Shown here piece after piece: positions 16,090 through 21,706 of a stretch of DNA of 64,000 bases. The number at the start of each line of letters is the position of its first letter. Within the stretch, counting starts at the first letter, position 1. The translations under genes were made by a program, and so were the position numbers. The DNA is taken from the NCBI GenBank assembly GCA_012520295.1, contig JAAYOP010000115.1:1-64000 (forward strand). Direction: 5' to 3'. This DNA comes from Clostridiales bacterium. Lineage in GTDB: Bacteria > Bacillota > Clostridia > Oscillospirales > Oscillospiraceae. Below the pieces are notes generated by a model. It was not told the origin of the DNA. It worked only from the letters and a program-made list of their open reading frames with translations, and did no database searches.

Positions 16090-18159
16090 TTACGCTTCTT
16101 CGTTGAGGGCCTTGGCTTCTTCAATTATCTTTGCCTGGATATTCGCCGGAGTCTCTTCATATCGTTCAAATGTCATTGTAAATGAGCCTCTGCCCTGGGT
16201 CATTGAGCGAAGGTCAATGGCATAAGAGCTCATCTCGGCCATTGGCACCTCAGCCTCAACCTCCTGGATACCGTCTCCCACCGGGTTCATACCCAGAACT
16301 CTGCCCCGCCTCTTATTCAGGTCTCCGATTATATCACCCATATAGTTGTCCGGAATATATACCTTCAGTAAGCCTATGGGTTCCAGAATGACCGGAGATG
16401 CCTGAGGCAGACCGTTTCTATATGCCAGGTTTGCCGCCAGCTTAAAGGCCATTTCCGAAGAGTCAACATCATGATATGAGCCATCTACCAGTGTTGCCTT
16501 CAGGTACACAACGGGATAGCCCGCAAGAACACCCTTCTGCATGCTCTCCCTCAATCCTTTTTCAACCGCAGGATGGTAGTTTTTCGGGACACTGCCTCCG
16601 AATATCTTTTCCTCGAAAATCAGATCCTCCTGATCACCAGGTTCAAATTCAATCCAAACGTCTCCGTATTGGCCATGTCCGCCGGACTGCTTTTTATGCC
16701 TGCCCTGAACCTTGACCTTTTTGCGGATTTTTTCCCTGTAGGCAACCCTTGCCGGGCTCAGCTCCACCTCTACGCCGAATTTATTCTTAAGCTTGGAACA
16801 CAGAACATCCAGATGGATATCGCCGGCTCCGGAAAGAATCAGCTGACGAGTTTCAACATTGTTTTCAAAGATAAAGGAAGGATCCTCTTCATTGAGTCTT
16901 GTAAGACCAGCCGATATTTTATCTTCCTGACCCTTCGTCTTCGGCGATATTGCCATAGTATAGCATGGTTGGTCGAACTTTATGCCGTCCAGCGTCACAG
17001 GATTCTTAGGATCACTCAAGGTATCTCCGGTTTTTGTATCACTCAGCTTTGAGACAGCTCCAATATCGCCACAGCAGATGGTTTTTACCTCGATGCTTTT
17101 CTTTCCCTGCATCACAAAGATATGGCCCATCTTTTCGTTGGAACCGGTTCTGCTGTTAACAAGCACCATGTCCGCGTCAAGCTTTCCGGAAAACACCTTA
17201 AAATACGAGAATTTTCCATATTGATCCGATTGGGTTTTGTATACCAGCAGGCTTGTGGAAGCGTCCTGAGAGGGCATAATCTCCACATCATTTCCTGATG
17301 CGTCCTTGCCTGTTTCAGGAAGGGCCTCGGCAGGAGAAGGCATAATGCTAACCACATTGTCAAGGAGAAGCTCCGTTCCATGTCCCGTAAATGCACTTCC
17401 GCACATTACCGGAACCAGAGAACGGGTTTTGAACCCTTCCTTTATTCCTCCGATAAGCTCTTCTTCGCTAAAGGGCTCCCCGGAAAAATACTTATCCATC
17501 AGCTCTTCCGATGTTTCAGCTACATTTTCTACCAGCACCGTATGCATTTCCTCAACGACAGACTCCATATCAGCCGGCAGCGGTATCTCAACAAGCTTGT
17601 TTTTATCCGTGGAATATGCCTGCTTGGTAATAAGGTCAACTACCCCCTCTACTTTGCCGTCCTTGTAGATGGGTATTGTCAAAGGACATACGATATGTCC
17701 GTATTTATCACGAAGCTCATTGTAGATGGCGGTAAAGTCGGCATTTTCCTCGTCAAGCTTGGAGATATAAAAGGCCACGGGAAGATTTCTTTCTTTTAAA
17801 ATAGCCCAGACTTTTTCTGTTCCGACAGCAACGCCTCCCTTTGCCGCACAGACAATGATGCCGGTATCGGCTACTCTTGTTGCCTGATGTACTTCACCGT
17901 AGAAATCGAAATAACCCGGAGTATCAATAATATTAATCTTTGTTCCCTTATGCTCGCAATGCATCATTGAGGCGGATATTGTTATCTTCCGCTTAATCTC
18001 TTCTGAGTCATAATCCCCGACGGTATTGCCGTCATTGGTTTTGCCGAGCCTGTCAATTACGCCCGTAATATACAGCATGCTTTCGGCCAGGCTGGTTTTT
18101 CCCGAACCGCCGTGCCCCAGCAGACAAATATTACGAATCTTTTCTGTGGTATAGGTCAT
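16090..18159 (-). CDS. EF-G-like translational GTPase (EF-G2 subfamily)
   Basis: A 689-residue translational GTPase with EF-G architecture: G domain with P-loop GHGGSGKTS, switch segment KRKITISASMM, DTPGYFDFYGEV, and SKLDEENADF in place of the usual NKMD. Domains II, III and IV (GGHGQYGDVWIEFEP, SVPKNYHPAVEKGL) and V (EPIGLLKVYIPDNYMGDIIGDLNKRRGRVLGM) follow. The altered GHGGSGKT/SKLD signatures are typical of the second EF-G-like class in Clostridia and Thermus rather than canonical FusA. This class is proposed to have weaker or specialised translocation roles. GGAGAGG precedes the ATG. It is monocistronic and not in a str operon. Confidence 0.88.
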   Translation of the reverse strand: MTYTTEKIRNICLLGHGGSGKTSLAESMLYITGVIDRLGKTNDGNTVGDYDSEEIKRKITISASMMHCEHKGTKINIIDTPGYFDFYGEVHQATRVADTGIIVCAAKGGVAVGTEKVWAILKERNLPVAFYISKLDEENADFTAIYNELRDKYGHIVCPLTIPIYKDGKVEGVVDLITKQAYSTDKNKLVEIPLPADMESVVEEMHTVLVENVAETSEELMDKYFSGEPFSEEELIGGIKEGFKTRSLVPVMCGSAFTGHGTELLLDNVVSIMPSPAEALPETGKDASGNDVEIMPSQDASTSLLVYKTQSDQYGKFSYFKVFSGKLDADMVLVNSRTGSNEKMGHIFVMQGKKSIEVKTICCGDIGAVSKLSDTKTGDTLSDPKNPVTLDGIKFDQPCYTMAISPKTKGQEDKISAGLTRLNEEDPSFIFENNVETRQLILSGAGDIHLDVLCSKLKNKFGVEVELSPARVAYREKIRKKVKVQGRHKKQSGGHGQYGDVWIEFEPGDQEDLIFEEKIFGGSVPKNYHPAVEKGLRESMQKGVLAGYPVVYLKATLVDGSYHDVDSSEMAFKLAANLAYRNGLPQASPVILEPIGLLKVYIPDNYMGDIIGDLNKRRGRVLGMNPVGDGIQEVEAEVPMAEMSSYAIDLRSMTQGRGSFTMTFERYEETPANIQAKIIEEAKALNEEA

Positions 18160-18355: not shown

Positions 18356-20815
18356 TTAATGCCTTATTCCAGCGCCGTTGAGCAGTAAAACGGGAAGCAG
18401 CCAAAACAGCATAAATGTCAGGGTGTTGGCCGGGGTTCCCGAAGCGAAAGCGCCATTATAGCATATAAAAAACATAAGTAAAAGACCAACAATAGCGCCA
18501 ACAACCGATAAAACCACAGTTTTCCTGACCGTAGACATCAACTGCCGCCCGCTTCTTACTATCTCCACAAATTGGCCCAGCCCGTTTCTGCTCATAATGG
18601 CCGAAGGCTTTATATCCTGATTATCTGAATCTGAGGAAAGATAATATCTGGCTTCAAATGTGGGAAACTCAATTTCTTCAGTGGATATTTCAAATTTTGT
18701 TTTTACCATGGAAGGGGTGATGTTAAAATCCCTCACTGCAAACAAGGGCGTTATTTTAGAGTTAATAAGGGACACCAGAGCGTTTCTGACTGAATCCACG
18801 GGAGTATAATTTATGATAAAAACTCCGGAGAGCTCATTGTTTATTGCGATGAAAACCGCGCTTTTTATATCCAGAATGGTGCTCAGCCTTATCCCCATAA
18901 GGTTCATAAACGCCGCCGAGCCCACAAGCACCCTGTCTCCCTTTATATCTGCCCCTATACCGCCTCCTTCATAACAGGAAAACTCATCAACGCGATATAT
19001 ATTGCAGGCGTATTCCCTTAAAAGGTCTGAGAACAGCCCTGACAGTCCGGAGCCCGATGCAAGAATCATGCTGCCCGCGTAGGACACAACCTTATCCACC
19101 CTGTCATTTGAAAAAACCTTTATTCCGTTGAAAGACAGGGTGTTTTCCGGGAACAGATCGTTGTCCCTTACCACCATTCCTATGGCGTCGTCAATATCGC
19201 TTGCTCCGCTCCAGCCTGCGATAGCGGCTCCGCTTGCGGCAAGCCTTCTCGATATGAAGTTAAAGGGAAGATTAAATGCTATAAGAGATGAAAAAGAGGC
19301 CGATGCGGCCGTCATGGCGGCAAAAGAATGTATGAAATTCTGTGGCTGGTTTTTAAATACTGAGGATATCAGAGAAAATATGACGGAGGCTATTATAAGC
19401 ATCGGAGCCATTCTGTCGTATGCTCTTTCTGCATAGTCGCTTTCCGCACACTTGGAAATAAAGCCTTTTGTGACGCCGTATTTCTTTGTCAGGACAATAC
19501 CTTCATCAGTCTTTTCCCAGTCTGCGGATACTACAATCGGGAGTTTTAAGGAACGCAGGGTTATAAGGGTTTTTCTATATGCTGATTTGCTGAGTCTATA
19601 CCCCCACATTGCTAACAGCACCGAAAAGGCCGCTACCGCGCAGAAGGGTAAGCCTCTGCTGTCGTCCCCCGTTATTATAATAAACATGGCATCGGCAATG
19701 GAAGCCAGGCTTGCCAACGTAACCAGAGATTCCGCACCCGCCCTGGCCCGGAACATGTCAAACAGTCCCGTAACAAAAACATCGATTCCCAAAAAGAGAA
19801 CAACTATAAGTGTTGAGAGAAAGAAAAGGGAAAAGTATACGGGGTTATTTTGAAAAACCTCCGGAATGGAAAGATTATATTCCTGGGCAAAGGTAAAATA
19901 GGCCATTGCGGCGCAAATAATGAAAGCAAGCAGTGATCTGCGCCTAATGGATTTAATACCTGAGCCGTATAGTTTAAGGGCATCTTCTATGCTCAGCTCC
20001 GGCTCATCCTGCTCCTTATCAGCCGGCTCAACATCCTTTACCTTTTGCTGCTGGTCTTTTGTCTTTTTTCTTTCCTCAACTGCTTTTTGCCGCTGGGTCT
20101 CTAATTCAATAATCTCTTCAACCTCGCTGAGATTGTCTATTACAGAGGTTGGTCTTGCATATTTTCCAACTCCGAAGAACTCCTGCTCAATGTCGCTCAT
20201 CGACATATATGAAGCCTGAAGCCCTTCTTTCTTTTTCTGCTCTTCCAGCAGTCTGCGCTGTTTTTTCTCAAGGAGGGCCAGCTGTTCTTTTCTTTTTTCA
20301 AATTCCTTTTGCGATTTATAGTCGCTTTTTTTCAGCTTCTCGGCCCTCTGCTTTTTTGAGGCCTTAACAACCTCGCCCTTTCTTGGCCTGCTTACGGTAT
20401 CCTGCGCAGGCAACTGCTCCTCTTCGGAAGGTTTATCAGAAGATTCAAATTCCTTGTCTTCCCCTCTCTTTTTTCTGAATATTCTCCTTTTTTGGCGTTT
20501 ATTCTCCGTGTCTGCGGTGCCTGACTCATCTTCTCTGTTTTGACCTTCCGTTGCCTTTTGCTCTTCGACGTTGGCTATTTCCTCCGGCTCCGGGGCTTTG
20601 TCTTGTTCACTTTTCTCCCCGGTTTTATCATCAGACTCGAAGCCCCCGGTCATCTCCCTGAGGATTTTCTCGGCCTGTCTGTCCAGCTCTTCCTTAGAGA
20701 GCTTTTTTTCGCCCATTATATAGGCACTGCTCTTATAGTCGGCAAGTATGGATTCCAGAGTGTACTCCTCTGCAACTTCCGCTTCATGATTCAATTTTTC
20801 ACGGTCGTTGTCCAT
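18356..20815 (-). CDS. Degenerate P1B-type ATPase-like membrane protein with long charged N-terminus
   Basis: An 819-residue protein. Residues 1-290 are highly charged Glu/Lys/Arg sequence with coiled-coil character. About residue 290 onward follows the layout of a heavy-metal P-type ATPase: four early membrane helices (one with GAESLVTLASLASIADAMF), a remnant actuator region, a helix pair, then NLPFNFISRRLAASGAAIAG aligned to the post-metal-site segment. The catalytic motifs are gone. The CPC site region reads SASFSSL, the phosphorylation loop (about residue 548) reads VVRDNDLFPENT instead of VFDKTGTLTEG, and no TGE or GDGxND is present. A P-type N-domain-like patch remains (about 620-635: GADIKGDRVLVGSAAF). 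It ends with helices and LLLNGAGI. It therefore cannot pump by the usual cycle and may be a scaffold or sensor. GAGGG precedes the ATG; it sits 49 nt after rlmB. Confidence 0.75.
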   Translation of the reverse strand: MDNDREKLNHEAEVAEEYTLESILADYKSSAYIMGEKKLSKEELDRQAEKILREMTGGFESDDKTGEKSEQDKAPEPEEIANVEEQKATEGQNREDESGTADTENKRQKRRIFRKKRGEDKEFESSDKPSEEEQLPAQDTVSRPRKGEVVKASKKQRAEKLKKSDYKSQKEFEKRKEQLALLEKKQRRLLEEQKKKEGLQASYMSMSDIEQEFFGVGKYARPTSVIDNLSEVEEIIELETQRQKAVEERKKTKDQQQKVKDVEPADKEQDEPELSIEDALKLYGSGIKSIRRRSLLAFIICAAMAYFTFAQEYNLSIPEVFQNNPVYFSLFFLSTLIVVLFLGIDVFVTGLFDMFRARAGAESLVTLASLASIADAMFIIITGDDSRGLPFCAVAAFSVLLAMWGYRLSKSAYRKTLITLRSLKLPIVVSADWEKTDEGIVLTKKYGVTKGFISKCAESDYAERAYDRMAPMLIIASVIFSLISSVFKNQPQNFIHSFAAMTAASASFSSLIAFNLPFNFISRRLAASGAAIAGWSGASDIDDAIGMVVRDNDLFPENTLSFNGIKVFSNDRVDKVVSYAGSMILASGSGLSGLFSDLLREYACNIYRVDEFSCYEGGGIGADIKGDRVLVGSAAFMNLMGIRLSTILDIKSAVFIAINNELSGVFIINYTPVDSVRNALVSLINSKITPLFAVRDFNITPSMVKTKFEISTEEIEFPTFEARYYLSSDSDNQDIKPSAIMSRNGLGQFVEIVRSGRQLMSTVRKTVVLSVVGAIVGLLLMFFICYNGAFASGTPANTLTFMLFWLLPVLLLNGAGIRH

Positions 20816-20864: not shown

Positions 20865-21623
20865 TTATTCGCTTCTTTGCCTGACAGCTTCATATATCAA
20901 AACGGCGGCTGCGGCTGATGCGTTTAAGGAGGACAGCCTCCCTTTCATAGGTATTGAGACCTTGAAATCACAGTTTTCCGCTACAAGCCGCCCCATCCCC
21001 TCGCCTTCGGAGCCAATTACAATCGCGGCGGCATCTTTAAAATCGGCATCCCAAAGCCGTGTTTCACCCTCTGCCGCCGCTCCAAAAATCCATATCCCGT
21101 GTTTTTTTAGTTCCTTTATCGCCGCGCTTATATTCGGCACCCTGGCAACCGGCATATGCTCCACCGCCCCGGCCGAGGTTTTTCTGACTATAGCCGTAAT
21201 ACCCGCGCTGCGGCGCTTTGGTATTATAATTCCATGGGCGCCCGCTGCCTCTCCTGTCCTTATTATCGCTCCCAGGTTATGGGGATCGGAAATTTCGTCA
21301 CATATTATTACAAGAGGTTTCTCCTTCTTAGCCTCCGCGGCTTTTATTATATCGTCAACACTGGAATATTCATGGACAGCTACTAATGCTATTACCCCCT
21401 GGTGGGCTTTGGTTTTGCTCATATAGTCCAGCTTCCGCCTGTCCACCTCTGAAATGACGGCTCCGGCAGCTCTGGCCTTCGAAGCGATATATTTCAGGTT
21501 CTTTCCAGCTTCTCCTTTGGCGATATAGACCTTGTCTATTGACCTTCCGGCTTTCAAAGCCTCCAACAAGGCGTTTTTACCTTCTATTTGCCCCTCTTCA
21601 GGCCTGTTTTTTTCATCGGACAC
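20865..21623 (-). CDS. rlmB: SpoU-family 23S rRNA 2'-O-methyltransferase (RlmB/TrmH type)
   Basis: About 252 residues. An N-terminal substrate-binding domain has GKNALLEALKAGRSIDKVYI and AHQGVIALV. The SPOUT trefoil-knot catalytic domain has motif 1 DPHNLGAIIRTGEAAGAHGII, motif 2 IVIGSEGEGM and motif 3 IPMKGRLSSLNASAAAAVLIYE. The family methylates G2251 of 23S rRNA in E. coli; the exact nucleotide here is inferred. GTG 21623 has 6-nt spacing to AGGTGA; an upstream TTG (21626) is the alternative. Probably co-transcribed with the membrane protein gene downstream. Confidence 0.88.
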   Translation of the reverse strand: MSDEKNRPEEGQIEGKNALLEALKAGRSIDKVYIAKGEAGKNLKYIASKARAAGAVISEVDRRKLDYMSKTKAHQGVIALVAVHEYSSVDDIIKAAEAKKEKPLVIICDEISDPHNLGAIIRTGEAAGAHGIIIPKRRSAGITAIVRKTSAGAVEHMPVARVPNISAAIKELKKHGIWIFGAAAEGETRLWDADFKDAAAIVIGSEGEGMGRLVAENCDFKVSIPMKGRLSSLNASAAAAVLIYEAVRQRSE

Positions 21624-21706
21624 CAAGCTTCACCTTTACTTATGTTATCGTTGAGGATATTTACCGGAACAGGTAAATATTAAAGCAGTCTCATAGAGTT
21701 TTGATT

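Follow-up and report, generated by a model that had tools for sequence, protein, structure and literature searches.

Results

A pseudo-P1B-ATPase gene lies next to rlmB

The window that we analysed, 64,000 nucleotides of a contig from an Oscillospiraceae genome, carries on its minus strand an intact open reading frame of 819 amino acids (18356..20815), which starts with an ATG at 20815, ends with a stop codon at 18356 and has no internal stops; it fills the interval that the initial annotation had described. The plus-strand reading of the same interval was rejected, having 24 stops. We use the name X for this pseudo-P1B-ATPase, which is encoded by a single-copy gene in its genome.

The protein begins with a cytosolic tail (residues 1-285, 19961..20815; this and all following features are on the minus strand) that is charged, free of cysteine and, judged by pLDDT and sequence, mostly predicted to be disordered. 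AlphaFold pLDDT values fall below 50 at residues 1-18, 30-36 and 57-165, and two long charged helices are modelled at residues 157-204 (20204..20347) and 225-260 (20036..20143). A short linear motif, YTLESILADYK, was recognized in an N-terminal alignment at residues 18-28 (20732..20764). The tail leads into residues 287-818. AlphaFold models this part as eight transmembrane (TM) helices arranged as in P1B pumps, with M4 separated from M5 by a headpiece, which bears out the earlier claim that the helix order follows that of heavy-metal P-type ATPases. The helices are MA (residues 287-312, 19880..19957), a kinked MB (325-355, 19751..19843), M1 (361-382, 19670..19735), M2 (392-422, 19550..19642), M3 (461-488, 19352..19435), M4 (491-528, 19232..19345), M5 (746-786, 18458..18580) and M6 (795-818, 18362..18433), and M4 is broken at residues 506-511 as it is in real P1B pumps. 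By alignment and model, what is left of the A domain lies between M2 and M3 (residues 423-460, 19436..19549) as two strands with no TGE loop. The headpiece includes an N-domain-like region, recognized by profile, Foldseek and alignment (residues 557-670, 18806..19147), followed by the second half of the P domain, which is shortened (671-742, 18590..18805).

Immediately upstream of X, at a distance of 49 nt, is rlmB, encoding a 23S rRNA 2'-O-methyltransferase (20865..21626), and downstream is a gene for an EF-G-like translation GTPase (16090..18159). The best NCBIfam score of this GTPase was to NF009381. Among 104 non-redundant loci that encode X, 92 have rlmB as the next gene upstream, on the same strand; the remaining 12 either have too little upstream sequence or have rlmB present with an ORF-boundary artefact. 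The EF-G-like GTPase follows X in 54 of the 104 loci, mainly near the window's own family. From this synteny, X is probably co-expressed with rlmB. Such a layout speaks for X being expressed together with translation genes and is no proof of a shared function; the association with rlmB may be historical.

X is related to copper-transporting P1B ATPases

As a single sequence, X reached no Pfam family, and its family as a whole has no Pfam or NCBIfam model that covers it at cut-off. Matches to ATPase-IB_hvy of NCBIfam (E=8e-4) and to the ATP-binding domain of CopB (E=0.05) lay at the edge of detection, and weak, scattered Pfam matches to Pox_A11, DUF2207_C and Claudin were set aside as low-complexity noise. 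When a 22-sequence alignment of the X core was compared by hhalign with real P1B pumps of the same genus, the two matched with a probability of 97.5% (E=5.1e-12) over 441 columns, versus 0.1% in a control comparison with P2-type ATPases. Eight of the 22 members reached the NCBIfam CopA model individually, the best at 5e-7. An order-wide profile built from 37 sequences scored intact CopA proteins at up to 178 bits and P1B-2 pumps, such as CadA and ZntA, at 58-85 bits, and found nothing among P2 ATPases; the CopA matches fell into two blocks with the A domain between them.

The predicted structure points the same way. The AlphaFold model of the core (pLDDT 87.5, pTM 0.81) was searched against the PDB with Foldseek, and the top eight matches were all copper P1B pumps, among them 4bbj (7.7e-18), 3rfu (2.1e-14) and ATP7B. 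The initial annotation had named an unrelated fold as one result that would overturn its view of X as an inactive P1B ATPase; the predicted fold is that of a P1B ATPase, and both the hhalign match and the structural matches support that view. Taken together, the profile comparisons and the model show X to be a P1B ATPase by descent and predicted fold, and the profile scores and fold ranking indicate that its ancestor was most probably a CopA-like copper pump (P1B-1). A phylogenetic tree, by contrast, sets X apart from both P1B groups, as a single clade with a very long branch; its nearest intact relatives are ordinary CopA pumps, themselves a very long branch away. Intact P1B pumps are also encoded in the genome that carries X.

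The catalytic and metal-binding motifs of X are lost

P-type ATPases are a textbook family whose defining feature is a phosphorylated aspartate. Alignments confirm that DKTGT, CPC, TGE and GDGxND are all absent from X, the sites being substituted, reduced or deleted. At the DKTGT position, X reads RDNDLFP (R550-D551-N-D553-L-F-P556, 19148..19168), and Thr, Lys or Arg occupies the position of the catalytic Asp in every one of the 19 main-clade sequences. The main clade does conserve D551 and D553. In distant families of X, this DxD-like pair shifts by one residue and half of the sequences have an Asp at the original catalytic site; the Lys, Thr and Gly of the motif are gone. TGE has disappeared with most of the A domain, of which a remnant of about 38 residues is left, and the GDGxND segment has been deleted from the P domain in every member examined, the most distant families included. 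The Asp of the TGD equivalent (V694-R695-D696, 18728..18736) is kept in 35 of 37 sequences of the family. These losses at DKTGT, TGE and GDGxND mean that, as far as can be read from sequence, autophosphorylation by the P-type mechanism looks impossible.

The initial annotation had listed SASFSSL among the segments found in place of the missing motifs. That segment spans the metal site, and the alignment refines the register: CPCALGLATP of catalytic pumps aligns with FSSLIAFNLP of X, so that F508-S509-S510 (19286..19294) takes the place of CPC. Neither X nor its relatives have a CPC, only P517 is widely kept from this site, and no conserved set of Cys, Met or His residues replaces it in the family. 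With phosphorylation by ATP and metal binding at the CPC site both lost, the sequence and predicted structure indicate that X does not pump.

N-terminal CxxC metal-binding domains are common, though not universal, in P1B metal transporters. The charged N terminus of X had been called unlike such domains, and the sequence agrees: the approximately 285 residues that precede the first TM helix at about residue 287 contain no Cys, and hence no CxxC metal-binding domain.

The alignment also bears on the N-domain-like patch reported earlier. The SEHP motif of the N domain is lost, VGx is kept, and the Gly of GxG is mostly kept (G619 in 36 of 37 sequences), lying in X within GGGIGA (residues 617-622, 18950..18967), the equivalent of the nucleotide-site GxG of P1B pumps. 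The N-domain-like region and the start of the P domain are the best-conserved part of the protein, with a mean entropy in the main clade of 1.5 bits for the headpiece versus about 2.1 bits for the TM helices.

X is conserved throughout a bacterial order

A single-sequence search found an open homologue in 188 of the 201 genomes of the window's own bacterial family and in 128 of the 130 that are near complete. Given this many open homologues and the 441-column alignment to P1B pumps, the features described above are well beyond chance. At the level of the order, a broad X profile matched all 295 genomes sampled. In seven of these the best match was merely an ordinary pump, and in one of the seven (G224) the contig ends inside the gene; X is thus present in 288 or 289 of the 295. 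In the other apparent absences, X and a recognizable rlmB orthologue were both missing, which may reflect either an assembly gap or joint loss. The weakest-scoring of the other matches were checked and lacked the catalytic motifs. The relatives, which include the named isolate Sporobacter termitidis, are consistent with the sampled order being the Oscillospirales of GTDB. A class-level search of 393 genomes gave matches outside the order; the eight examined all proved to be intact CopA proteins that retain DKTGT, CPC and GDGxND, and they were rejected as members of the X family. The motifs had already been lost at the base of the order.

The dN/dS values of measurable pairs were 0.03-0.17 for the core and 0.07-0.29 for the tail. 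One copy, at L093:3165-5561 in genome G220, is broken into two frames by a single TGA, possibly a sequencing error or a recent loss. The initial annotation had allowed that close homologues with intact motifs might expose X as a decayed copy. No intact close homologue was found; all members examined lack the motifs, their frames are open and they are under purifying selection. X is not a decayed copy, and its core is under strong purifying selection. Its near-universal presence in the order, at the same gene position, suggests that it probably has a job other than pumping.

A motif in the tail of X recurs in LspA and in a second damaged pump

Across the family, the N-terminal motif takes the form [FY]SLE(S/D)ILAE(Y/F)K, and several members carry two copies. 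The motif peptide of X is YTLESILAEYKGS; in an 18-sequence N-terminal alignment, residues L20, E21, I23, L24 and K28 of the protein encoded in the window are invariant. We scanned 41 family genomes with a DNA pattern and 1.29 Mb of loci at the protein level, the window's own genome being covered by the DNA pattern only. Outside X, matches beyond chance came from just two protein families in this material: the signal peptidase LspA and a second pseudo-P1B protein. In nine related genomes, LspA (identified by TIGR00077) has a long, low-complexity, disordered C-terminal extension with the motif at its extreme C terminus, as in the example ending in ...EFSLEDILAEFR. The loci that encode motif-tailed LspA (signal peptidase II) are L186, L190, L193, L196, L202, L204, L206, L210 and L247. 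Most genomes of the order have LspA without this tail. Nor is the motif always needed in X, since one genus (L101, L135 and L136) encodes the X core beside rlmB with neither the charged tail nor the motif. An apparent short form of X that lacks the N terminus (L070 and L073) was rejected, being due to a contig end.

The second pseudo-P1B protein is a damaged P1B ATPase of 629 amino acids (L257:2035-3924, minus strand, genome G020) that begins with an X-type motif, has NKTGT for DKTGT and has lost GDGxND; a class II aldolase gene adjoins it. Two further P1B-2-like proteins have damaged motifs. One, in the window's own genome (L109:161-2107, minus strand), has SED for TGD and GNGIGNG for GDGxND, and the other (L111:1450-3204, minus strand) has EKTG and IGDAAKD. 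The genes for these two are each downstream of one that encodes a product with a DHHW motif. Like X, all three are P1B ATPases with damaged catalytic motifs from the same order, and the 629-residue protein shares the N-terminal motif of X; unlike X, they group together within P1B-2 in the tree and do not adjoin rlmB. Their origin is therefore independent of that of X, and pumps have been inactivated at least twice in this order.

Discussion

By descent and fold, X belongs to the P1B family, and in four motifs it departs from the functional pumps; it is best classed as an old pseudoenzyme lineage of these ATPases. It shares with CopA and other P1B-1 proteins (4bbj, 3rfu, 7r0g; ATP7B, 7si6) the fold, the order of the eight TM helices, the break in M4, the GxG and VGx of the N domain and the strands of the P domain. 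It differs from them in having no DKTGT, CPC, TGE, SEHP or GDGxND, in its short A domain and shortened P domain, and in carrying a charged tail where CopA has CxxC metal-binding domains. With CadA and ZntA (P1B-2) it has the superfamily and fold in common, the motifs again being lost, and its profile is closer to CopA than to these.

What X does instead can be proposed with about even confidence: it would be an ancient functional pseudoenzyme that serves as a membrane scaffold or sensor, with the tail motif recruiting a putative cytosolic partner. The pattern of conservation, with the headpiece best conserved, the helices less so and the flexible tail ending in a conserved tip, is what suggests this. 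X would keep its eight-helix membrane domain and N/P headpiece without pumping, the cytosolic headpiece would bind a ligand or protein partner, and the flexible tail would display its docking peptide and so draw the putative partner to the membrane. LspA, in some relatives, and the second dead pump seem to recruit that putative partner as well. We infer that X acts at the membrane, and likewise its partner, its ligand and any link to translation. Pseudoenzyme scaffolds such as the pseudoprotease iRhoms are dead membrane enzymes kept as binding or trafficking platforms; their fold is unrelated to that of X, and the analogy extends only to the possible mode of action.

Other functions can be imagined for a pump that does not pump. 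X might be a passive channel or carrier for an ion or small molecule, gated by a ligand of the headpiece rather than by phosphorylation. The eight helices and the M4 break are all kept, and P517 in M4 is largely retained; against this, it is the TM helices that are less conserved, and the CPC site has no Cys, Met or His set in its stead, and we regard such transport as unlikely. It is more doubtful still that X regulates an active P1B pump, for example as the dead half of a heterodimer: intact pumps are available in the same genome, but X adjoins rlmB and no pump gene. We are equally skeptical of residual HAD-type chemistry, a phosphatase or phosphotransferase using D551-x-D553 and D696. Within the main clade the Asp pair is conserved, and D696 is kept nearly throughout, but the Mg2+-binding motif IV (GDGxND) is deleted and the pair is out of register by one residue in the distant families. 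The initial annotation had suggested looking for conservation in spore formers, and SpoIVA is found in most genomes of the order, where X is likewise widespread. The family proved not to be specific to spore formers, however: X is retained by 17 of the 18 sampled genomes that lack SpoIVA (five from one genus), which, with neighbours that are translation genes, makes a sporulation role very improbable. That X is a functionless relic, as the loss of every catalytic motif and the one broken copy might suggest, is refuted by its open frames across the order, the low dN/dS of its core and its fixed gene position.

Building on the reading of X as a scaffold or sensor, we put forward more tentatively that a copper pump became, across the whole order, an obligatory membrane scaffold without catalytic activity, and that X, some LspA proteins and the second dead pump share a docking peptide for a putative cytosolic hub. 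We found no description of such a dead-pump family in the non-subscription literature searched; nothing relevant emerged on inactive P-type ATPases, FUPA families, rlmB/fusA operons or LspA tails. Near-universal and under selection in one major gut-bacterial order, this family of full-length dead pumps presents a clear case of the passage from transporter to pseudoenzyme, and the motif common to X and LspA offers a direct experimental handle on a putative system that links membrane and cytosol.
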